Virus record (IMG/VR): IMGVR_UViG_3300042731_000933
Location: 1 to 35,595 of that record
Reading direction: 5' to 3' (one strand)
Length of the DNA: 35,595 bases
Source of the DNA: a virus
Shown: positions 8,770-35,177 of the stretch, in pieces
How the letters are laid out: each line of letters starts with the position of its first letter
Numbering within the stretch: position 1 is the first letter of the stretch
Notes under the pieces: model-generated
Databases searched by the model: none
What the model was told of the DNA's origin: nothing
The model's input: only the letters and a program-made list of their open reading frames with translations
Translations under genes and position numbers: made by a program

Positions 8770-8976
8770 ATGGACTTTGTGAAAGTTGAAGGGCATGATG
8801 GTCTCGTTAGAGACGAGACCACAGGTGCCATCTTGAATTTGGATGATTCTGCCATAGCTGCAAGGAGAAAATCCATGCAGTTAAGTTCCGCATTGGACGA
8901 CATAAATACATTGAAGAATGAAGTCTCTGAACTCAAGTCCATACTGCGAGAGTTAATCCAAAATGCCAGCAATTAA
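8770..8976 (+). CDS. Small coiled-coil protein, unknown function
   Basis: This is a 68-residue protein starting nine bases after the previous stop and overlapping the next gene by 14 bases. The first third (DGLVRDETTGAILNLDD) is typical of small conserved proteins in cyanophage structural clusters. The C-terminal half (LSSALDDINTLKNEVSELKSILRELI) shows a heptad pattern, suggesting a parallel coiled coil. Its placement between two giant virion proteins suggests a minor structural or assembly partner, but no function is recognised. A minus-strand frame across the same bases (8757-8972) is judged a shadow because this frame fits the tiling of the operon. Confidence 0.75.
   Translation: MDFVKVEGHDGLVRDETTGAILNLDDSAIAARRKSMQLSSALDDINTLKNEVSELKSILRELIQNASN
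8902..8908 (+). promoter_or_regulatory. Putative late promoter -10 box (ATAAATA)
   Basis: ATAAATA preceded by C lies inside the small coiled-coil gene, 54 bases before ATG 8963 of the 1831-residue fibre protein. It matches the T4-like late box and the spacing seen at other gene starts here. It could be a chance match in coding sequence. Confidence 0.4.
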
Positions 8977-11900
8977 TGTAGCACGCACTGATACCTTTGA
9001 ACAACAAAGGTTGAAAATTAATCAGATCAGTACCCAAATTTTCACGGTTACTGCTGGTGGATCCGATCTTTCTACAGGAAACCTAAAACTAGGAGACGGA
9101 CTAGTATCTGCGCCAAGTTTGGCGTTTGTAAACGATGCTCAGTTGGGTATCTATCGCAACGGTACAGGTGTACTGGGATTTGCTAGTAACAGTAAAAAAT
9201 TATCAGACCTAGCAGCATCTAGTGTCAAATACTATAGAGACTTTGTAATTGAGAAGAACAGTCTCGATACACTAGGTATTGCAATTAACAATGCTGGTTC
9301 TAACTATGATGGTGGAACCTATTCTGAGATTCCTGCTATTGGCGGTACTGGTGATGGTGCTACCTTTGGTATCGAGGTAGATGGATTCACTGGTTCTATC
9401 ACACAGAATGGTACAGGATACACACCTGGCGTATATCTAAACATTCCTGTTCTTGGTGGCAATGGATCTGGTGCCACTATCGACTTCACAGTTGATCAAA
9501 TTGGTGGTGTTATCACAAACGGTGGTATCAACTATGCTGCTGGTGGTTATACAAATATTGCAGTAACAGGTGGCAGTGGTCAGCAGATGACTGCTGATAT
9601 TACTGTTTCTGCTTTTGCAGCAACCGTTACCTCTGGATCTAACTATCCAAACGGGATGTTTAAGAGCATCCCAATGACGGGTGGTAATGGAACAGGTATG
9701 TTGATGAATCTCAACGTACAGAATGGTGGTGTTCAACCTGTTGGTGGAGTTGATAGCAGCGAATTTGTATCTGTTACATCTCAGTATACTGTAGGAGATG
9801 TTCTAACAGCAACTATTCCCCTTGCAGGAACACAAACATTTGAAGTTAAAGCATCTCTAGGAAACGAATACTTTATTGATGGATTTTTAGGTGGAGACTT
9901 TAACTTACTAAAAGGAAAAACTTATATCTTCGATTGTAGTGATGCTACAAACGATCCACACCCATTCTATCTTTCATCTATTCAAGATGACACCAACGGT
10001 ATTCTAGATGCTGCAGATGGTGTTACTTATGAACTAGATGGATCTGCAGTAACTGGAGCACAATTCCTTGCTGGTTGGTTTGCTGCTAATACCAAAGTTT
10101 GTACATATGCTGTACCAGCAAACCCAGCAAACGCTCAAGTTTACTATAGTTGTAGTGTTCACCCCAATCAAGGTGGTACTTTAACACACTCAGATCCAAA
10201 CTCTCAGCAAGGTGGATTCTCATTAGTTGTTGATACTGTTGGTGGTACTGTCAGTGAGTTTATTGTTAGTGCTCCTGGTGATGGTAGTTACGTTGCAGGA
10301 GACGTTGTTAGTGTTGCTGCAACAGATCTATATGATGCCAACACTGCTGATGCAGGTCTATTAGGTTCTGGTTTACAAATTACTCTTGGTGGTAACTTTG
10401 GATCTATTCAAGCACTAGATCAAATTTCTTCCTTCGGTAATAACTATCAAACTGGAGATCAACTTGTTCTAGCAACTGCTGTAAACAATGTTAGCACGTA
10501 TGCTAGAGGAGAACTATTCTTTAATGGTGTTACCTTTACATCGAACGCAGCAGTAACTGCAATTCAGTTTACTGGTAATGCTGTAGGTGCTGCTAGAACA
10601 TATAGTGGTGTTGCTGTACAGAACATTAACAGTAATGGTGCTGGATTGACAGTTGATGTTGTAATCTCAACTGGTGGTGGTAACACATTCTATGACTCTG
10701 TAACAATTGTAAGTGGTGGTTCTGGATACTTACCAGGAGACACTCTATACATTGCAGGTAATACTCTAGGTGGTGCTGCAGGTGCTCAACCTGGATCTGG
10801 TGGTAACGATCTTGCAATCTCTGTTTCTACTATTACCGCAGGTAGTCCTCAAGTTACAGTTGCTGATACTACTGGTATTGAAGTTGGTGATACTGTCGAA
10901 CTAGTACAAAATATCAATAACCCAGGTCAAATTCCTGGTGGTGTAACTGTCGTAAGTGTTGACAGTGCTACACAATTTACAATGTCTGCAGGACCAACTA
11001 TTCCTGGTAATGCTGACCTTAGAATTACTAACTCAAATATTACATACTTGACTGTTCCTTCTTCTGCAGGAATTATTTCTGGTATGCAAGTTGTCAAAGT
11101 GAGTGGCAACGGTGAAATTATTGCTGGTACTACTGTTACTGGTATTATTGATGCAACTACTGTTGAAATTTCCATTGCGCCAACCGCTGCTGGTACGATG
11201 GTTGTTAATTTTGAACCTGAATACGGCGGTGGTACTGGATTCCAGTATACTGTTGGAACCTTGGGTGTTGTCAGTGATGTAAGTATTGTAGAAGGTGGTA
11301 ATGGATACACCATTGGTGACACTCTACAGGTTAGTGCATTTGATCTTGTTCAACCAGAAGTATATGCAGTAACTAATCTGCAGGTCGATAAGATTAATTT
11401 CGTAAGTAATGCAATTCCTGCTGCTACGTTTAGCGTAGGAGATCAAGTAAGAGATGCAGGTGGATCTATCTTAGCATCTACAGTAACAGTTTCTACAGTC
11501 GTAGCAGCTGCTGCTGATGGTGTATACACAGGAGTAGCACAAAGTGCATCATCTGGAAATGGTGTTGGTGCTACATTTGATGTACAGAGAGATAACACTG
11601 GTGCTATTTTATCCGCTGTTGTAACAACAGGATCTGAAGGATCTTTCTACGCAGATAATGATACTATCACAATCCCTGGTGCGTCTGTTGGTGGTTCTAC
11701 ACCTGCAGATAACTTAACAATTACAGTTAATGCTGTTAACGCTGCTGGAAATCCTGTCGTTATTCGTAAGGTTGCAACTACTGCTGGTAACATTGATTAC
11801 ATTGTAATTGATACATTCGGATTTGCTGCTGGAGATGTTCTTGTAAAAGATAACGTTCCTGCTACAGGATATGATATCGATACTGTATCAACAGAGTATC

Positions 11901-14458
11901 GTTACTTCATGGATCTCAATGATGGTAACGGAGCAGTAATGACACCATCTTGGACGGTGTACTCTGGTAACAGTTATACATTTGATCTAAGTGATGCTAC
12001 AAATGGTGGACACGACTTCGCACTATCTGCATTTAGAGATGGTAGATGGGCACCTAGTAGACAAGAAAATATTTCAACCACATTACTTGCAAACGTAGCA
12101 ACAATTACAGTCAATTCAACCAGTGGTATTTCTGCTGGCATGGTTGTCGAGAAAGTATCTGGAGATGGTATTCTCGCAGATAATACAACTGTACTATCTG
12201 TAGATAGTGCAACTCAATTGACATTGAGTGCTAATCCAACTACAGCAGGTGCAATTGTTGTTAATATTTTTGGTGGAAGTTACACAGATGGTGTTACCGT
12301 TGATGGTACAAATGTAACAATTAAAGTTACAGATACAACACCTACTCTCTATTACTTCTGTGCTACAGAAAATATTGATCACCAAAACGAAGGTGGTGAT
12401 GACAACGAAGAAGCACAAATTACAGTCAGCACAAATAATCCTAAGACATTTGGTAGTGGATTTGAAGTAATTGTTACAGATGTTACTGTAGAGGAAGTTG
12501 TTAAAGGAACTGTACAAGACGGTTTCTTCAATGTAAACAAACTAGTAACACCACTAGCAGAAGCAACTGCTGCAAACATTGCTAATGCAGATGTTACTGC
12601 AATGTTGACCTCTGTTGCAATTACTTGTGGTACATTCACTGGTCCTACTGGATCAAACATTGATTTTGCTGTTGCAGATCCAACAACGGATATCATCAAT
12701 TTTGATACTGCAGCACTGAACATTGGTACTAGATTCCAATATGCATCTACAACAGGTGATCTTACTGTTGCTGGTATTCTAAAAGGAACTGAGGTAAGAG
12801 TTGGAGACTATCTAAAGATTGATAGTGTTGACAATGCATTTAAATCACTTGGTGGATTTGATGTTAAAGTCATTCCTGATACAGGTAGAATTGCAGACGT
12901 TCTTACTAATACAGCAATTGCAGTTCCTGCTGGTAATACATCAGAAAGACCTGTTGCTGGTATCGTAAAAGACGGTTGTATCAGATATAACACTGATACT
13001 AATCAGTATGAGGGTTACAGTTCTCAGACTGCTTCCTGGGCATCCCTAGGTGGTGTTCGTGACCTAGATGGTAACACATACATTCTAGCAGAAGAAACTG
13101 TAGGTAGTAACGATAACACTCTATGGTTTATTAATGACAATATCAATACAGTTAGGTTCACACCCAATCATCTTGAATTTGTCAACATGAAGAAGATGCG
13201 TTCTGTGAACGTAACTGCTCCTGCATATTCAGAGTGGGCAGCAAACATTCCTGTAACGTTAGGTCAATATGTCAAGTATAAAAATAACCTCTATGAGGTA
13301 ACACAAGCTGGTACTACTGCTACAAGCGGCAATGAACCAACACATACTTCTGGAGCACAACCAAACGGTTCTTGCGAACTAACATATTCCCAGTTGGCAG
13401 TTGCTCCTCTAACATTTGAGGACATTGAAGAACTAAGAGTTGGACCTCTTGGTAGTTTACCATTAGTTATTAATAGTGACCTAAGACTTTTTGATAACGT
13501 AATTTCTACAGACATCAATGACATCTTCTTAAGACCAAACTCTGGTAAGAAAGTTGTTATTGACGCTGCTACATCTCTTGTTATTCCAAATGGAGCTACT
13601 GGTGATAGAGGAACTGCTGAGCAAGGTTCTATTCGTTTCAACACCACTACGTTTACATATGAAGGTTATGATGGAGCTAACTGGGGTTCTCTTGGTGGAG
13701 TCAAGGACGTTGATCAAAACACTTACATTATTCCTGAGACTGCTCCTGGTGCAAACGAAAACATCTTGTATTTCTACAATGATGGAAGCAATACGATGCA
13801 GCTCACCACAACTGCACTTGATTTCTATTCTGTAGATACAATTAGATCTCAAACAAGCAGTCAGTTTGAAATTACTGCAAACTTGATGACATTCAATAAT
13901 GCAGAAACAACATTCGACAACACTGATGCAACTAAGACTTTCCTACATACTTCTAAGCAATACTTTGATCTTGGTGTTTCTACAGGTGTTTATGTAGATC
14001 CAATTCTTAGACTGGATGATCAAGGTGATGTATATCTGAACACTGGTTTCGGTACTGGAACATACAACGGTGTTAAAGTCTTCGATGGAGACTTGAAAGA
14101 GTTTGAACTTGCTGATGTCAAAATCACAACTGATACATTGACTCTACAAAAAGGATCTGCAAACAATGGTGGATCTAATATCTACGAAGTTGCTACAGCT
14201 AATGGAGCAAAAGTAGTTGTAGTAGCAGAAAACTTACAAGATGGTAATAAAGAGTTTGTTGAGTTTGGTGTTACAGATGATGGTGCAAATATCTTCCATA
14301 CTGAATATGGTAACTTGAGAACAGGTTATCAGGTAATCATTCCAACATTTGAATATACTGCTGGAAATGAAGCAAGATTAAATATTACATTGGGAGCAAA
14401 TGTTCCTGATACAAATCAGGTCAAGATTACCGTTTCGTCCACAATTACTAAGAAATAA
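8963..14458 (+). CDS. Modular fibre/virion protein with G-x-G-Y repeats and cupredoxin-like domains
   Basis: This is an 1831-residue protein. Modules in order: an N-terminal fibre segment (INVARTDTFEQQRLKINQIS); four tandem repeats of about 38 residues from 105 to about 256 (GxxYxxGxYxxIPxxGGxGxG pattern); a cupredoxin-like domain near 300-415 with H333, C397, H400 and Q403; further Gly-rich G-x-G-Y and S-G-Y-x-x-GD repeats; two GIxxGxxV modules near 630-750; a second cupredoxin-like domain near 977-1150 split by another GIxxGxxV module; and two copies of an IRxNTxTxxYEGY...WxSLGGVxDxDxNTYI module near 1330 and 1555. The C-terminus is beta-rich. It is probably a tail-fibre or decoration component assembled on the virion surface. 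Metal binding by the cupredoxin-like folds is inferred from motifs only. Confidence 0.75.
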   Translation: MPAINVARTDTFEQQRLKINQISTQIFTVTAGGSDLSTGNLKLGDGLVSAPSLAFVNDAQLGIYRNGTGVLGFASNSKKLSDLAASSVKYYRDFVIEKNSLDTLGIAINNAGSNYDGGTYSEIPAIGGTGDGATFGIEVDGFTGSITQNGTGYTPGVYLNIPVLGGNGSGATIDFTVDQIGGVITNGGINYAAGGYTNIAVTGGSGQQMTADITVSAFAATVTSGSNYPNGMFKSIPMTGGNGTGMLMNLNVQNGGVQPVGGVDSSEFVSVTSQYTVGDVLTATIPLAGTQTFEVKASLGNEYFIDGFLGGDFNLLKGKTYIFDCSDATNDPHPFYLSSIQDDTNGILDAADGVTYELDGSAVTGAQFLAGWFAANTKVCTYAVPANPANAQVYYSCSVHPNQGGTLTHSDPNSQQGGFSLVVDTVGGTVSEFIVSAPGDGSYVAGDVVSVAATDLYDANTADAGLLGSGLQITLGGNFGSIQALDQISSFGNNYQTGDQLVLATAVNNVSTYARGELFFNGVTFTSNAAVTAIQFTGNAVGAARTYSGVAVQNINSNGAGLTVDVVISTGGGNTFYDSVTIVSGGSGYLPGDTLYIAGNTLGGAAGAQPGSGGNDLAISVSTITAGSPQVTVADTTGIEVGDTVELVQNINNPGQIPGGVTVVSVDSATQFTMSAGPTIPGNADLRITNSNITYLTVPSSAGIISGMQVVKVSGNGEIIAGTTVTGIIDATTVEISIAPTAAGTMVVNFEPEYGGGTGFQYTVGTLGVVSDVSIVEGGNGYTIGDTLQVSAFDLVQPEVYAVTNLQVDKINFVSNAIPAATFSVGDQVRDAGGSILASTVTVSTVVAAAADGVYTGVAQSASSGNGVGATFDVQRDNTGAILSAVVTTGSEGSFYADNDTITIPGASVGGSTPADNLTITVNAVNAAGNPVVIRKVATTAGNIDYIVIDTFGFAAGDVLVKDNVPATGYDIDTVSTEYRYFMDLNDGNGAVMTPSWTVYSGNSYTFDLSDATNGGHDFALSAFRDGRWAPSRQENISTTLLANVATITVNSTSGISAGMVVEKVSGDGILADNTTVLSVDSATQLTLSANPTTAGAIVVNIFGGSYTDGVTVDGTNVTIKVTDTTPTLYYFCATENIDHQNEGGDDNEEAQITVSTNNPKTFGSGFEVIVTDVTVEEVVKGTVQDGFFNVNKLVTPLAEATAANIANADVTAMLTSVAITCGTFTGPTGSNIDFAVADPTTDIINFDTAALNIGTRFQYASTTGDLTVAGILKGTEVRVGDYLKIDSVDNAFKSLGGFDVKVIPDTGRIADVLTNTAIAVPAGNTSERPVAGIVKDGCIRYNTDTNQYEGYSSQTASWASLGGVRDLDGNTYILAEETVGSNDNTLWFINDNINTVRFTPNHLEFVNMKKMRSVNVTAPAYSEWAANIPVTLGQYVKYKNNLYEVTQAGTTATSGNEPTHTSGAQPNGSCELTYSQLAVAPLTFEDIEELRVGPLGSLPLVINSDLRLFDNVISTDINDIFLRPNSGKKVVIDAATSLVIPNGATGDRGTAEQGSIRFNTTTFTYEGYDGANWGSLGGVKDVDQNTYIIPETAPGANENILYFYNDGSNTMQLTTTALDFYSVDTIRSQTSSQFEITANLMTFNNAETTFDNTDATKTFLHTSKQYFDLGVSTGVYVDPILRLDDQGDVYLNTGFGTGTYNGVKVFDGDLKEFELADVKITTDTLTLQKGSANNGGSNIYEVATANGAKVVVVAENLQDGNKEFVEFGVTDDGANIFHTEYGNLRTGYQVIIPTFEYTAGNEARLNITLGANVPDTNQVKITVSSTITKK
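9275..9730 (+). repeat. Four tandem ~38-residue G-x-x-Y beta repeats in the 1831-residue protein
   Basis: Within the translated gene four consecutive units share the pattern GSNY/GTGY/GINY/GSNY, then GxYxxI(P/A), then GGxGxG, and a hydrophobic strand. Units begin near GSNYDGGTYSEIP, GTGYTPGVYLNIP, GINYAAGGYTNIA and GSNYPNGMFKSIP. The period is about 112-115 bases. Related units occur in the two other giant virion proteins. Confidence 0.75.
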
Positions 14459-14460
14459 AA

Positions 14461-14961
14461 ATGGCAACTACAATCGAAAAATTTGATTCCGCTGGTGGAT
14501 TTTCTGTAGAGAAAGTAATTCATATTGATGAATTACACAATGCCAAGGAATTAAATTCTTTGGAAATTAAAAACTCTCAATATACTGATAGCAACACAAC
14601 GACATATATCTTGAGAGGAATTAACACTGCGACGTTGGCATTAGATGGTGTTGGATCACAAGTTCCTATTGGATCCAATACTATGAATTTTATCACTGGT
14701 CATATTATTGCTACTGATTCTAATGGTGTTATCTTTACCAGTAAATTAGAATCAGCAGTTTATGGTGATGGTAGTGGCAATGTTTCTGTTATGTCTACTA
14801 TGGAAACTATTATTAAGGATGATATTCCCTCAGGTCAAACTTGGTCAATTACTCCCGTAGGTGCTGCGAATAGATTTTCCTATTCTACTATTAGAGCAGG
14901 TACAACTTTAGATATCAAATGGGCAGTCTCAACTCAAGTCACATCACTTGAGTGGGCATGA
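14461..14961 (+). CDS. Conserved-looking structural protein, unknown function
   Basis: This is a 166-residue protein starting two bases after the preceding stop, so probably translationally coupled. It is rich in beta-forming, Thr and Ser residues with a short charged N-terminus (EKFDSAGGFSVEKVIHIDELHN), and it ends LEWA. It has no signal peptide, membrane span or catalytic motif that I recognise. Its position between two fibre proteins suggests a fibre-associated or baseplate accessory protein. It could be a trimeric connector, but nothing in the sequence proves this. Confidence 0.7.
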   Translation: MATTIEKFDSAGGFSVEKVIHIDELHNAKELNSLEIKNSQYTDSNTTTYILRGINTATLALDGVGSQVPIGSNTMNFITGHIIATDSNGVIFTSKLESAVYGDGSGNVSVMSTMETIIKDDIPSGQTWSITPVGAANRFSYSTIRAGTTLDIKWAVSTQVTSLEWA

Positions 14962-29462: not shown

Positions 29463-29655
29463 ATTGGTTCCTATTATCCACCATTCTATTCTTCGCAGAT
29501 TCGATTGGGTTGATAAGACAAAGGATCTCAATAGAGAAAAACTGCTAGAGTTGGCGGAGACAAACAAATATATTCTGGAAACAAATCCAGAAGCTGAACA
29601 CATTTATATGGAAAAAGTGATTGTAGATTATGGCAAGATTTTCGCTCCCTCTTAA
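29440..29655 (+). CDS. Small hypothetical protein preceding the U32-like gene
   Basis: This is a 71-residue protein, overlapping the previous gene by 23 bases and the next by 26. ATG 29440 is chosen because the frame upstream (from 29338) runs inside the preceding gene and gives low-complexity Cys/His/Asn-rich sequence. The product is helical and charged (HSILRRFDWVDKTKDLNREKL), with no recognised motif. Its tight embedding suggests translational coupling to the U32-like enzyme, perhaps as a partner. Confidence 0.6.
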   Translation: MSSQRHLELVPIIHHSILRRFDWVDKTKDLNREKLLELAETNKYILETNPEAEHIYMEKVIVDYGKIFAPS

Positions 29656-31312
29656 TACCAAATTACCAGAAGATTTTGTACTGAATACTTTTATTCCTTT
29701 CCTTAAGGAACATAAAGATTACATCTACGATATCTACTTCACCTGTCGTATGCCACCTTTTGTGCAGGATGCGATGGGTGATGTTATTGATGGGGATATG
29801 AGAGATACCACTCTCAATGCTTTGTATGTCTCACAAGAGACAGGTATTCCTTTATCAGCAACATTTAATAATATCCAAGTTCCACCTACACAAGAGAACT
29901 TAGATATTTTTATTGAGAATTTTAGATTCCTGTATGACTCAGGAGTTCGTATCATCACTATCCCACATACATCGTGGGTTTTGACTGGACAGTTGCAGAA
30001 AGAGTTTCCCGAACTGTTCATTAAGAATACTATTCTTAGAGAAGTTACTAGACCTAATGAAATTGTAAACCTAGCAAAAGCAGGGTTTCATTATGTCAAC
30101 CTAGATAGAGATCTCATGCGTGACAGAGATACTCTACTGAAAATTAAAGAAGCAAAAGAATACTGTGCTGAGATTGGCAAACCAGTAAAGATCTCACTAC
30201 TTGCTAACGAGTGGTGTTGGGGTGGTTGTCCTATTATGCCAGAACACTATCACTACAACATGGTGAGGGAGAAAGATGACCCTCAGTATTTCAATACCAG
30301 TTTGAGTAGGGTATCTTGTTCTACCTGGGATGAGAGAGATCCTGCTGCATCACTAAAAGCAGCAACGATTCCACCATGGAAAAAAGATTGGGAAGAGTTT
30401 CTTGATCTAGGTATTGATGTATTTAAGATGCATGGTAGAGAGAATGCAATGCGTCTCATGGAAAGCATGGACATCATTAAACGATGGGCAGCAGACGAGG
30501 AGTTGCTACACCCACAGTTCAATGACTACATTGAGGATGTAACTCTCGAAGACAAACCAATTGATATCTGGAGAGAGAAAATCAAGACATGTGGTTTTGA
30601 TTGTTGGAAGTGCAACTACTGTGACTCTGTTGTACAGTCTAGAATGAAGAGGAGTGATAGACACTTTGATGAGGACATTGAATTAGTTCTGTCATCTATC
30701 GAGAAAGCAGCAAGAGGAGACAGTGAGTTTGTAGAAGAAGGATTCAAATATGAAGGACTGTCTTCTAATACCGTAAGACACTTCCTAAACAATCTACTAT
30801 CTAAACCTGACGCTATCTACATGGAGTTAGGTGTACATGCTGGCAGCACATTCTTTGCTGCTACTATGAACAGAGATGTAGAAGCATTTGCTGTCGATGA
30901 TTACTCTGAGAAAGAGATCTCTCCATTTAGAGATGATGTAGAGAAAGAATCATATGATGATCCCAAGAAAGTATTTTTTAGTGGTCTCAAAGAGAAGCAA
31001 TACTTCTGTCCAAAATCTATACAAGATCTGACACCAAAGAATGTACACAAACAACCTAATGTTATTTTCTACGATGCTGATCATGATCCACAAGCACAGT
31101 ATGATAATCTGACATTCTTGGTTCCTGCATTTGCAGACAAGTTTATTCTTGTTATTGATGATGCAAACTTTATGGGTGTTGTGCAAGCAGCAGAGTTCTT
31201 TGTAAAAGAGAACAACTTGAATGTTTTGTTTGAGAGGAAAATCCTCACTAAAGTTCCAGAAGATCCTAATGGATGGTGGAACGGTATTCATGTCATGGTA
31301 ATTTCTAAATGA
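29630..31312 (+). CDS. U32-like Fe-S-type protein fused to a class I SAM methyltransferase
   Basis: This is a 560-residue two-part protein. Residues 1 to about 345 look like a TIM-barrel protein of the peptidase U32 superfamily: alternating strands and helices, NEWCWGGCPIMPEHYHYN at 193-210 (C196, C200, H206), C230, and FKMHGREN at 265-272. U32 proteins (RlhA, TrhP, UbiU/UbiV) support hydroxylation, and several bind Fe-S through Cys. A second cluster, CGFDCWKCNYC (C321, C325, C328, C331), could bind metal. Residues about 365-560 fit a Rossmann methyltransferase (Methyltransf_24-like): ELGVHAGST at 399-407 (SAM loop), AVDDYS at 421-426, YDADHDPQAQYDNL at 481-494 and LVIDDANF at 507-514. The stop overlaps the first oxygenase start. 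Fold and reaction are inferred from motifs; the substrate is unknown. An alternative is a radical or other Fe-S barrel enzyme. Confidence 0.7.
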   Translation: MARFSLPLNTKLPEDFVLNTFIPFLKEHKDYIYDIYFTCRMPPFVQDAMGDVIDGDMRDTTLNALYVSQETGIPLSATFNNIQVPPTQENLDIFIENFRFLYDSGVRIITIPHTSWVLTGQLQKEFPELFIKNTILREVTRPNEIVNLAKAGFHYVNLDRDLMRDRDTLLKIKEAKEYCAEIGKPVKISLLANEWCWGGCPIMPEHYHYNMVREKDDPQYFNTSLSRVSCSTWDERDPAASLKAATIPPWKKDWEEFLDLGIDVFKMHGRENAMRLMESMDIIKRWAADEELLHPQFNDYIEDVTLEDKPIDIWREKIKTCGFDCWKCNYCDSVVQSRMKRSDRHFDEDIELVLSSIEKAARGDSEFVEEGFKYEGLSSNTVRHFLNNLLSKPDAIYMELGVHAGSTFFAATMNRDVEAFAVDDYSEKEISPFRDDVEKESYDDPKKVFFSGLKEKQYFCPKSIQDLTPKNVHKQPNVIFYDADHDPQAQYDNLTFLVPAFADKFILVIDDANFMGVVQAAEFFVKENNLNVLFERKILTKVPEDPNGWWNGIHVMVISK

Positions 31313-31875
31313 ACTCTTTTAGACATCAATATATGGTAGTTCATCTAGACGATGAATTTTTTCCATTACTAGAGAAAGCATTGAAACCATACAATCAGTA
31401 TGAAGAATGCAAAACTGATCAATGGGACGGAGTAAATTACACTAGTGAAGATCATCCAGATAGAAGTTCTAAAGCATGTTGGGTAGATGACCATAAAATT
31501 TATGAGTTGATGGATGGTTTGATTGCTTTTGCAAATTCAAAATGTGAATGGAATTTAGATGTCAATTACATAGAACCATTTCAATTAACAAAATATGATG
31601 TTGGTGATTTTTATGACTGGCACATTGATGAGTCTGACTGGACTCCTGGTAAACGACAAGGAAATAAGATTCGCAAAATAAGTTGTACTATTTTGTTGAA
31701 TGATGATTTTGAAGGTGGTGAATTTGAAATCCAAACAACAGAGAAAAAAGTGATAGAATTAAAGAAGAAAGATATAATTATTTTTCAGTCTGATACTCCA
31801 CACAGAGTAAGACCTGTTACATCTGGTGTCAGACATTCTTTAGTCGGATGGATTCAAGGACCAGCATATAAATGA
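31309..31875 (+). CDS. Fe(II)/2-oxoglutarate oxygenase 1, PiuC/YbiX (PKHD-type) like
   Basis: This is a 188-residue protein. The double-stranded beta-helix core shows YDVGDFYDWHID (ligands H105 and D107), then ISCTILLNDDFEGGEFEI, KDIIIFQSDTPHRVRPV (third ligand H165) and R175 for 2-oxoglutarate, ending SLVGWIQGP. The HRVxPVTxGxRxSxxxWxQ signature is typical of PKHD-type hydroxylases such as PiuC/YbiX, which fits its length of roughly 190-230. The first 90 residues are a helical, acidic cap. It overlaps the previous stop by four bases and the next start by four. The enzyme should couple 2-oxoglutarate decarboxylation to hydroxylation; the substrate is not predictable from sequence. Confidence 0.85.
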   Translation: MNSFRHQYMVVHLDDEFFPLLEKALKPYNQYEECKTDQWDGVNYTSEDHPDRSSKACWVDDHKIYELMDGLIAFANSKCEWNLDVNYIEPFQLTKYDVGDFYDWHIDESDWTPGKRQGNKIRKISCTILLNDDFEGGEFEIQTTEKKVIELKKKDIIIFQSDTPHRVRPVTSGVRHSLVGWIQGPAYK

Positions 31876-32435
31876 AATTTATTAAAGAGTACAAACTATC
31901 AGACTTATCAATTTGTGATAGGTTGATCGATCTCTATAACGATGCAGATAAAAAAGATCTGACTTATGCTGGACGTGTGGGTGGTGGTAGTATCATTCCA
32001 GAAATTAAAAAGAGTAAAGATTTTTTTATTGAAGATGCTGGACCATTAGGTTCTGCAAGCGATTATAAATTTGATCTATACAAAAATCAACTTGATGAAT
32101 TTGTTGAAGACTATCTTAATAGTCTTGATATTATGAATCAAGAATTTGTAATGGAACGATTACCACAGATTCAATATTACAAACCTGGAGATGGATTCTA
32201 TACCTGGCACGTTGATGGTTCTGGTAAAGATGGTTGTGATAGAGCATTTGTATACATCACATATCTAAACGATGTTCCTGACGGTGGTACAGAATTTTAC
32301 TATCAAGACTATACAGTCAAAGCAGAGAAAGGAAAAACTCTTTTATTTCCTGCAGGTCTGACTCATAAACATAGAGGACAGATATCTGAGACACAAGAGA
32401 AATATATTATTACTGGTTGGATTTGGTGGGTATGA
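31872..32435 (+). CDS. Fe(II)/2-oxoglutarate oxygenase 2, prolyl 4-hydroxylase-like
   Basis: This is a 187-residue protein. The core has YYKPGDGFYTWHVDGSGK (H113, D115), FVYITYLNDVPDGGTEFYY, GKTLLFPAGLTHKHRG (H165) and K177 in QEKYIITGWIWW. A Lys rather than Arg at the 2-oxoglutarate site is characteristic of prolyl 4-hydroxylases, and the LNDVPDGGTEF strand is also P4H-like. P4H-superfamily genes are known to be frequent in T4-like cyanophages, with unknown targets. It overlaps both neighbours by four bases. Peptidyl-proline hydroxylation is plausible but unproven. Confidence 0.85.
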   Translation: MKFIKEYKLSDLSICDRLIDLYNDADKKDLTYAGRVGGGSIIPEIKKSKDFFIEDAGPLGSASDYKFDLYKNQLDEFVEDYLNSLDIMNQEFVMERLPQIQYYKPGDGFYTWHVDGSGKDGCDRAFVYITYLNDVPDGGTEFYYQDYTVKAEKGKTLLFPAGLTHKHRGQISETQEKYIITGWIWWV

Positions 32436-32965
32436 AAATCATAAAGAACTTTTTACCAAAGCAATTATTTGATGCATGTGTAGATGACTTTAGATCAAAG
32501 TTAAACACTGATTGTTGGTCTTCTAGTAACTTTGCATGGAAACCATTCTTGAGACAAGGGATCCATGGATCTACTGTAGCTACAGATGTTCCTAAAGTAT
32601 TCACAAATGAAATATCAAAACTACTGAAACCATATGCTCCTGAGTTTAGTAAGTTGACATGTAGATATAATGTATGGCAACCTGGAGCTGGTATTGGAGT
32701 TCATTCAGATACACATCATTTGTTTGGTGCAACAATATATTTGAATGAGCATTGGCATCCAAATGCTGGTGGTTGGTTTGTATGGATGGATCATTCAGAT
32801 CTCAACTTAGATGAAGACCCAACTAAAACTGACATATTCAAAGCAGTTTTACCAGATGCTAATATGTTAGTATTAAATGATTGCAGTGAAAGTCATTTGG
32901 TAACTACTGTTGCTCATGATGTTCCTGAGTATCGATACACTATTCAGATATGGGGTGACTTGTGA
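32432..32965 (+). CDS. Fe(II)/2-oxoglutarate oxygenase 3
   Basis: This is a 177-residue protein. ATG 32432 overlaps the preceding TGA (ATGA); an upstream in-frame ATG at 32417 is disfavoured because it would extend into the conserved end of the previous gene. The core has YNVWQPGAGIGVHSDTHH (H91, D93), GATIYLNEHWHPNAGGWFVW, a Leu-rich strand, then SESHLVTTV (H155, the likely third ligand) and R168 in EYRYTIQIW. H162 is an alternative third ligand but is only six residues from the Arg. The WHPNAGGWFVW segment is typical of small phage and bacterial P4H-like proteins. The N-terminal half is a helical cap with a Ser/Cys/Trp-rich loop. Confidence 0.8.
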   Translation: MKIIKNFLPKQLFDACVDDFRSKLNTDCWSSSNFAWKPFLRQGIHGSTVATDVPKVFTNEISKLLKPYAPEFSKLTCRYNVWQPGAGIGVHSDTHHLFGATIYLNEHWHPNAGGWFVWMDHSDLNLDEDPTKTDIFKAVLPDANMLVLNDCSESHLVTTVAHDVPEYRYTIQIWGDL

Positions 32966-33543
32966 ATAAACCTATTGTTATTAAAAACGTATTGTCAAAG
33001 TCTGAGAGAGTAACACTCTGGGATTATTTTGATCGTAAATCTCCTTCTATGAATAGTCTTGCTACCTGGACGTTCAACAATGCATCGTATGGTCATGGAG
33101 ATCCTGTATCCTGGCAGCATCCTCTCAGGACAGATTTAATCTTCACTAAATGTGCTACTACAGTTAGATTGAAAATGATGAAACACTTGCGTAGAGATAT
33201 CAAACTATGCAAGATTCACGCTAATGGTCAAACTGCTGGACAAAATACTATCTTCCACAAAGATTGGGAAGAACATGGAGTATGGACATTCATCTATTTT
33301 AATCAACCATACTGGGATGTAGAATGGGGTGGAGAATTTGTATGTCAAACACCAGACGACGAATATCACTTCACTCCATATGTTCCTAACAGTGGTGTGT
33401 TTATTCCTTCCAATTGGTTGCATAAAGGACAACCACCTAACAGTTTAATTGGAAACGATATCAGAACAACAATTGCTTTCTCTTTTTGTGATCCTGATAT
33501 TCATCAACAAATTATTTCACAGACTACAAGAAAATGGTATTAG
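32962..33543 (+). CDS. Fe(II)/2-oxoglutarate oxygenase 4 (GTG start)
   Basis: This is a 193-residue protein. The start is GTG 32962 in a GTGA overlap with the previous stop; no ATG near it fits. The core has FHKDWEEHGVWTFIYF (H99, D101), EWGGEFVCQ, VPNSGVFIPSNWLHKGQPP (H154) and R168 in IRTTIAFSF, a complete set of ligand and co-substrate residues. The WTFIYFNQPYWDVEWGGEF run resembles the 2OG-FeII_Oxy families seen in cyanophages. The cap contains a Trp/His-rich stretch near 43-53. It overlaps the next gene by 10 bases. Confidence 0.8.
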   Translation: MNKPIVIKNVLSKSERVTLWDYFDRKSPSMNSLATWTFNNASYGHGDPVSWQHPLRTDLIFTKCATTVRLKMMKHLRRDIKLCKIHANGQTAGQNTIFHKDWEEHGVWTFIYFNQPYWDVEWGGEFVCQTPDDEYHFTPYVPNSGVFIPSNWLHKGQPPNSLIGNDIRTTIAFSFCDPDIHQQIISQTTRKWY

Positions 33544-34049
33544 GAATTAGAGGATATCCAGTAGATGTTGATGCAAATGAACTCATAGATTTTATTGATT
33601 CATCTATTGAAAATGGTAGTCTTACTAAAAATATGGCACATGTGTCCAAACTCACTTTCAATGATGGTAAAGATGATTTCTTAGAACAAGACAATCCCAT
33701 GATCAAAAAACTTAGATGGTCATTCTATGATGCTTGTTCTAGATTTTGGGGTATGGATGTGTTTGACTATAATATGAATTCGTGGGTGTATGTTGATTGG
33801 GACAAAAATCCAATTGAACCATATATGCACTGCCACAATCCAGAGAATCCATTTACATTGTCTGGTATAATGTATGTGAAGTTGGGTGAATCTGGAACTA
33901 CTATGTTCCCCATACCAAAAAGAGATCCATACTACTTGCCAAGTAAAGAATTGATGTGGTTTATTTTCCCATCAAATCTACCACACACACCTGGCAAAGG
34001 AGTGGAAGATCAAAAACGATATAGTATAAGTGCTGATTTGTATCCATGA
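33534..34049 (+). CDS. Fe(II)/2-oxoglutarate oxygenase-like 5, HxH variant
   Basis: This is a 171-residue protein. The pattern resembles the 2OG-FeII_Oxy_5 family (PF13759): YMHCHNPENPFTLSGIMYV with H99-x-H101 where the classical motif is HxD, then GTTMFPIP, a strand WFIFPSNLPHTPGKG (H151) and R162 in KRYSISADL. Members of this family carry H-x-H-x-N/P-x-x-x-x-SGxxY in cyanophages. Whether H101 or a solvent ligand replaces Asp is unclear. The start overlaps the previous stop by 10 bases, and the next start overlaps its own stop (ATGA). Confidence 0.72.
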   Translation: MVLGIRGYPVDVDANELIDFIDSSIENGSLTKNMAHVSKLTFNDGKDDFLEQDNPMIKKLRWSFYDACSRFWGMDVFDYNMNSWVYVDWDKNPIEPYMHCHNPENPFTLSGIMYVKLGESGTTMFPIPKRDPYYLPSKELMWFIFPSNLPHTPGKGVEDQKRYSISADLYP

Positions 34050-34651
34050 TTTACCAACAAAGTAACCTCTCATTTATATCAGAGAAAATACCAGACAATA
34101 TATACAAAGATCTTCTTACATATACAAAAAAACGTAGGAAAGATGAGACATGGAATTACAATGGGAGATTAGCTGGTGCTTTAGCACAACAGTCTAGTTT
34201 GTCTGAATGGAAATATGAGTGTCCTAGTTTTGAAGATTATGTAATTAATCTATCTAAAGAATTGTGGAATGAAGTATATGAAACTTGTCCATGGGATTTT
34301 CAAGAGACAAGAGATGTATCTCCTTTCATCAAGTTGAGAAACCTTTGGGTAAATTATCAAAAACAAAATGAATATAATCCAATTCATACACACTCTGGCA
34401 TTGTAAGTTTTGTTATCTTTGTTGATATACCATATGGATCAGAAGAAAGAACCACGCATAGAAGCAATGGTGCATTTCAATTGGAAGCGGAAGTATTGCC
34501 AGTTGACAGATCTTGGAATGGTGTCATACTCATGTTTCCTTCTACGACAAAACATGCGGTATATCCATATAAATCTACTACAAATGAAAGAGTAACTGTG
34601 TCTGGTAATCTTACTTGGAATGTGGAGGGTCCTGATGAAGAACATTATTAA
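34046..34651 (+). CDS. Fe(II)/2-oxoglutarate oxygenase-like 6, HxH variant
   Basis: This is a 201-residue protein. The core has LWVNYQKQNEYNPIHTHSG (H114-x-H116), SFVIFVDIPYGSEERTT, VILMFPSTTKHAVYPY (H170) and R182 in ERVTVSGNL. This is the 2OG-FeII_Oxy_5-like arrangement, the W-N-x-x-x-x-x-x-N-x-x-x-x-H-x-H form. The N-terminal 90 residues are a charged helical cap. It overlaps gene 5 by four bases and gene 7 by 17 bases. Its sequence differs widely from gene 5 despite the shared fold, so they are not a recent duplication. Confidence 0.72.
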   Translation: MIYQQSNLSFISEKIPDNIYKDLLTYTKKRRKDETWNYNGRLAGALAQQSSLSEWKYECPSFEDYVINLSKELWNEVYETCPWDFQETRDVSPFIKLRNLWVNYQKQNEYNPIHTHSGIVSFVIFVDIPYGSEERTTHRSNGAFQLEAEVLPVDRSWNGVILMFPSTTKHAVYPYKSTTNERVTVSGNLTWNVEGPDEEHY

Positions 34652-35177
34652 AGACAATTGCATCAATCCAAACTATCAAAACCTTATCGAAGAAACTCTG
34701 AGGTTTGATACTGATTTTAGATGGGTCTACCATGACAACTTAGTTGAAGATGGCATAAGTCAGTTAGTAGGATTCTCTCATATGTTCTTACTCAATGGTA
34801 AATCTACTAGTAGTTACACTGGATTGTTTATGCCACTGGTATTTGAAGCATGTCACAATACAGGTATTAGTATATCAAAAGTAATTCGTGGCAGATGTTT
34901 TTTACAGACACCTGGAACTAGAATTAATGAATATGATTCTATGCATGTAGATTTAGGTGATCCACATATGGTTTGCCTATACTATGCTACGGATAGTGAT
35001 GGGGACACGTATTTTAGTGAAAGAATGTACGGAGATCCGATTGCTGAATATCCTATAAATAGCACAGTATCACCCGTAAAAGGGAGATGTGTTTTCTTTG
35101 ATGGACTACGCTTCCATGCAAGTAGTAGACCTACAGAGAAACCTAGATTTGTAATCAACTTTAATTTCATTCCTTGA
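34635..35177 (+). CDS. Fe(II)/2-oxoglutarate oxygenase 7
   Basis: This is a 180-residue protein. ATG 34635 (MKNIIKDNC) follows GGAGG at 34624-34628 with suitable spacing; ATG 34620 lies before that site and is rejected as the start. The core has SMHVDLGDPHMVCLYY (H104, D106), DGDTYFSE, VSPVKGRCVFFDGLRFHASS (H161) and R171 in RFVINFNF, a full HxD...H...R set. The VKGRCVFFDGLxxHAS strand is shared with cyanophage 2OG oxygenases. It is the last gene of the oxygenase block and is followed five bases later by a small coiled-coil gene. Confidence 0.8.
   Translation: MKNIIKDNCINPNYQNLIEETLRFDTDFRWVYHDNLVEDGISQLVGFSHMFLLNGKSTSSYTGLFMPLVFEACHNTGISISKVIRGRCFLQTPGTRINEYDSMHVDLGDPHMVCLYYATDSDGDTYFSERMYGDPIAEYPINSTVSPVKGRCVFFDGLRFHASSRPTEKPRFVINFNFIP
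35054..35061 (+). promoter_or_regulatory. Possible internal late promoter box (TATAAATA)
   Basis: Exact TATAAATA inside the last oxygenase gene, 121 bases before ATG 35183. The long distance and coding location make a chance match likely. Confidence 0.2.

Follow-up and report, generated by a model that had tools for sequence, protein, structure and literature searches.

Cupredoxins and immunoglobulin-like domains are both built as Greek-key sandwiches, and in stellacyanin, a cupredoxin of the phytocyanin group, the ligand loop is spaced C-x4-H-x4-Q. Iron in phage tails attracts much current interest in marine biogeochemistry. T4 gp37 is known to have iron sites at HxH motifs, such sites have also been proposed for marine phages, among them cyanophages, and the Trojan Horse hypothesis is concerned with the iron at these motifs in T4-like tail fibres (PMC11705849). 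Our literature search, which covered subscription journals only a little, found nothing relevant on phage virions with domains of the cupredoxin, blue copper or copper-binding kind, nor did it find a copper measurement for any such virion.

The window, by which we mean the whole stretch of 35,595 nucleotides that was analysed, is a 35.6-kb IMG/VR fragment of a cyanomyovirus (Kyanoviridae) near S-RSM4, to which megablast aligned 53% of its first 25 kb at 74.8% identity. The protein of interest has many beta-rich repeats and matches PHROG 6005 (cyanophage virion structural) over most of its length (E 0, 1721.6 bits). Its orthologues, gathered via the downstream T4-GC512/PHROG 5449 gene, include S-RSM4 SRSM4_148, S-PM2p086 and ACG-2014h S-MbCM7_081, and they are annotated as virion structural protein in S-PM2, S-RSM4, S-CAM4, Syn1, ACG-2014h and others. 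Annotations of this type rest on the virion proteomes of S-PM2, Syn9 and S-SM1 (PMC3037559). Elsewhere in the window, downstream of the tail-fibre genes, a methyltransferase-like ORF (29630-31312) precedes seven consecutive short, non-identical ORFs (31309-35177) that are 2OG-Fe(II) oxygenase-like (PF13640, PF13759), four of the seven above the Pfam cut-off; such a run looks unusual.

Table 1. Features of the window around the two cupredoxin-type domains.
Feature	Position (nt)	Strand	Basis
gp8, end of gene	57-611
gp7-region protein, 2695 aa	673-8760
1831-aa virion structural protein with D1 and D2	8963-14458	+	orthologues, synteny, PHROG 6005
D1, cupredoxin-type domain, aa ~300-411	9860-10195	+	family alignment, AlphaFold model, profile match
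H333, predicted first His ligand	9959-9961	+	ligand column of profile
C397, predicted Cys ligand	10151-10153	+	ligand column of profile
H400, predicted second His ligand	10160-10162	+	ligand column of profile
Q403, predicted axial ligand	10169-10171	+	Met (ATG) in sister orthologues
D2 first half, with H1017 (12011-12013)	11894-12052	+	alignment
Module inserted in D2, about 65-70 aa	12068-12280 (boundaries approximate)	+	alignment
D2 second half, loop C1133-x6-H1140-x2-E1143 (12359-12391)	12281-12442	+	alignment
Small conserved virion structural protein (T4-GC512, PHROG 5449)	14461-14961	+	downstream of 1831-aa protein
Tail-fibre-like protein, 3460 aa	15014-25396

The preliminary description had read H333, C397, H400 and Q403 as the ligands of a cupredoxin-like domain in a virion protein, and all four residues were found exactly where it had put them: YIFDCSDATNDPHPFYLSS (aa 321-339, nt 9923-9979) contains H333, and YYSCSVHPNQGG (aa 394-405, nt 10142-10177) contains C397, H400 and Q403. 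The type 1-like order that it described, His...Cys, His and an axial Met or Gln, can indeed be read from D1. A disulfide between C325 and C380 was considered as well and was dropped, because the nearest relatives (L004-L006) keep C325 without a Cys at position 380. D1 is absent as a block from the orthologues of S-RSM4, ACG-2014e, S-B43 and S-PM2 (L262, L267, L271 and L024), and it therefore behaves as an exchangeable module.

Judged from its sequence, D1 belongs to a large, unnamed domain family of marine phages that is related to cupredoxins. This kinship holds by computation at the level of profiles. Compared with a profile of 15 bacterial amicyanin-type proteins and two cyanophage plastocyanins, the family profile scored 31.3 (P 2.8e-5, probability 74%) over 70 columns, with the H, C, H and M ligand columns all in register, against a best score of 18.9 for 60 column-shuffled controls and 12.7 for the reversed one. 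Together with the virion annotation of the orthologues, this register bore out the reading of a cupredoxin-like domain in a virion protein. One family member from another cyanophage protein (L207:2084-2380) matched PF00127 Copper-bind with 34.3 bits (E 3.2e-8), the curated cut-off being 21.2 bits, and others matched the amicyanin model TIGR02657 at best with E 2.2e-4, below its curated cut-off of 110.2 bits. D1 of the window itself had no cupredoxin match in Pfam (PF00127 included) or NCBIfam (TIGR02657 included), and the window sequence alone as a query against Pfam, NCBIfam and PDB gave no credible one. When PDB sequences were searched with the family profile, a multicopper oxidase came best (E 4.3e-4), pseudoazurin and plastocyanin followed behind it (E 0.08-0.6), and antibody chains were also among the matches, which in their case centre on the YYC strand.

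The AlphaFold model of D1 is mostly beta and confident (mean pLDDT 92.4; folding from the single sequence reached only 41.5), and in it predicted strands follow immediately on H333 and flank the C397-Q403 loop on either side, just like those of cupredoxins. It had been proposed to compare such a model with plastocyanin and stellacyanin by Foldseek; against the PDB nothing fell under E 1e-3, and neither protein nor any other cupredoxin stood among the best 50 of 1873 rows, which were mostly Ig-like folds with TM-scores up to about 0.45. Against BFVD the model matched cyanophage structural proteins, the best match being an unnamed viral protein of 112 aa (E 1.5e-9). Two further BFVD matches, A0A481Z6J5 and A0A481YVH3, are called 'beta-sandwich protein' and come from Pithovirus LCPAC302 and Marseillevirus LCMAC201; giant viruses may thus have the domain too.

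The family is widespread, as had been anticipated for marine phages. By tblastn the domain occurs in 247 phage records, nearly all of them from cyanophages, with a Pelagibacter phage and an uncultured marine phage in addition. The matching stretches in IMG/VR number 418 for the gp9 subtype and no fewer than 553 for another. Its carriers are baseplate subunits of the gp7-like type, the gp9 tail-fibre connector (at the C-terminus), tail fibres and an S-TIM5 virion protein, in some cases with two copies close together (e.g. L071 and L080). Only four loci were found in GTDB, in SAR86 and in a Bacteroidetes genome, where the carrier is a giant protein; these are too few to root the family with respect to a cellular origin. 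Two SAR86 proteins (L108:6027-8288 and L109:7371-8348) are lipoprotein-like and have the domain at their C-terminus with H/C/H/M intact, which points to an extracytoplasmic setting there.

Conservation of the ligands was assessed in an iterated family profile of 336 full copies, clustered at 60% identity into 34 representatives. The H, C and H columns are kept or lost jointly in 33 of them: all three residues are kept in 20 and none in 13, and one has the first His only. In 20,000 permutations at most 19 representatives were joint (relatedness uncorrected). We regard this as the fair test of conservation, because the 49 aligned copies in which only F, H, C and H are invariant had been picked as ligand-intact. 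The loss of all ligands in about a third of these diverse representatives suggests that the fold is useful without metal. Intact copies, clustered at 90%, comprise 127 with HCHM, 19 with HCHQ and two with a shifted Met, so that the fourth position is Met or Gln save in the two copies with shifted alignment. The sister orthologues L277 and L278 have Met at this position, and the codon is ATG in L007 and L220 and CAA or CAG in the window's clade. The axial Gln of D1 is a recent change from Met inside its orthologous group. Gln seems to have arisen twice separately, in the window's clade and in the P-RSM6-type protein, whose loop has CAA or CAG in each of its 21 occurrences. The change from Met to Gln needs two base changes, and only ATG and CAA/CAG, with no intermediate codon, were seen.

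New here is a second cupredoxin-type copy in the same protein, D2 (aa ~978-1160), whose two halves are separated by an inserted module that is missing from D2 of S-WAM2. Its loop in the window, C-x6-H-x2-E-G-G, is unusual. A C-x5/6-H-x2-E-G-G loop occurs in 19 of the 78 orthologues (the window and 18 more), and all 19 keep the first His and the Cys; S-RSM4, ACG-2014e, Sf-FR1, Sf-CH11 and others have the canonical C-x2-H-x2-M, and the other 39 orthologues have no Cys left at the place of the loop. Among the described type 1 sites, none with a C-x5/6-H-x2-E-G-G loop is known to us. Counting canonical sites only, the 78 full-length orthologues have one site (in D1 or D2) in 67 cases, two in 1 and none in 10. 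Counting the C-x5/6-H-x2-E loop as well gives 18 with two sites, 52 with one and 8 with none, which weakens the one-site pattern. One whole clade has a site in neither domain. Among laboratory phages, ACG-2014h, S-RSM4 and S-SSM5 have intact sites; in S-WAM2 the orthologue of the 1831-aa protein has none. The orthologue tree, which carries long-branch warnings, offers about five well-supported independent comparisons (sign test, median p 0.375, not significant). With so few independent switches, one site per protein is a pattern rather than a result.

Taken together, the computed observations are the profile-level membership, the joint conservation of the ligands, the axial position restricted to Met or Gln and the presence in virion-annotated proteins. 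We consider it probable that D1 is a divergent cupredoxin beta-sandwich with a selected type 1-like metal site, filled outside the cell and serving stability or adsorption. D1 would be one module of a long virion protein of the baseplate/tail-fibre region, in which selection keeps H333, C397, H400 and Q403 as a mononuclear site, presumably for copper. Assembly of the particle takes place in the cytoplasm, which offers negligible free copper, so the site would take up its ion later, either from sea water once the cell has lysed or at the cell envelope. The bound ion could then stiffen an exposed face of the loop that contributes to particle stability or to contact with the host surface. There is no sign of a redox partner, which makes electron transfer an unlikely role.

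Of the other explanations, the one to be taken most seriously, though we hold it to be unlikely, is that the domain is a cupredoxin-derived spacer or adhesin without metal, in which the ligand residues persist for packing. The 13 of 34 representatives that lack all three ligands and still sit in virion proteins would suit it, as would a protein made of many beta-rich repeats; however, joint rather than piecemeal loss, like the axial position of the intact copies, fits a metal site better than packing. It is less probable still that the site binds a different metal, either Zn or, as in the HxH motifs of T4-type tail fibres, Fe, and helps the virion to adsorb to its host or stabilises the protein. 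Zn too is encountered by virions in sea water, and iron at HxH is known from T4 gp37 and proposed for marine phages (PMC11705849), but HxH pairs are a different motif, and His-Cys-His with Met or Gln is the copper set of the matched family.

The predominance of Ig-like folds in the best 50 of 1873 Foldseek rows, along with the antibody chains in the sequence search, might also indicate that the fold is Ig-like and its C-x2-H loop convergent. This we think very improbable, since the structural TM-scores are low, the antibody matches centre on the YYC strand, the cupredoxin profile match is ordered and in register over 70 columns and a family member exceeds the Copper-bind cut-off.

Since the ligand set is intact in D1 and hundreds of marine virus sequences conserve it, the particles of these viruses may contain copper. 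A wider proposal, which we put forward only tentatively and rather doubt, is that the baseplate and tail-fibre proteins of many marine cyanomyoviruses, and those of other marine phages, place type 1-like copper centres in the virion, usually one canonical site per copy of the 1831-aa-type protein, in either domain, with two unusual sites in the window's protein. If so, these two would be the Gln-axial site of D1 and the C-x5/6-H-x2-E-G-G loop of D2, such virions would count among the copper ligands of sea water, and the metal might serve adsorption or protection against oxidants. If abundant cyanophages have a conserved copper-type site in their virion proteins, a second metal would join iron in phage tails, one with a cleanly testable spectrum; the natural versions with Met, Gln, an extended loop or no ligands form a ready comparative series.

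Among known systems, amicyanin and the plastocyanin-azurin group (TIGR02657, PF00127) share with D1 the order of segments, the His...C-x2-H-x2-axial loop and the ligand register, a likeness at profile level only; D1 differs from them in its greater size, some 25 additional residues preceding its last strands, and in being an internal module of a giant virion protein, without signal peptide. As to stellacyanin, to which D1 had been likened, the axial Gln is indeed common to both, but the loop spacing is not, since C-x2-H-x2-Q is of the amicyanin type; moreover, no close sequence match links the two, and the Gln of D1 is recently derived from Met. The cyanophage plastocyanin PetE, encoded in related cyanophage genomes, belongs by profile to the same superfamily, yet it is a free, exported-type protein with C-x2-H-x4-M, whereas D1 is part of a virion protein. 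The HxH iron sites of T4-like tail fibres are likewise proposed metal ions in phage tails, from which the putative copper site of D1 differs in motif, fold and metal.
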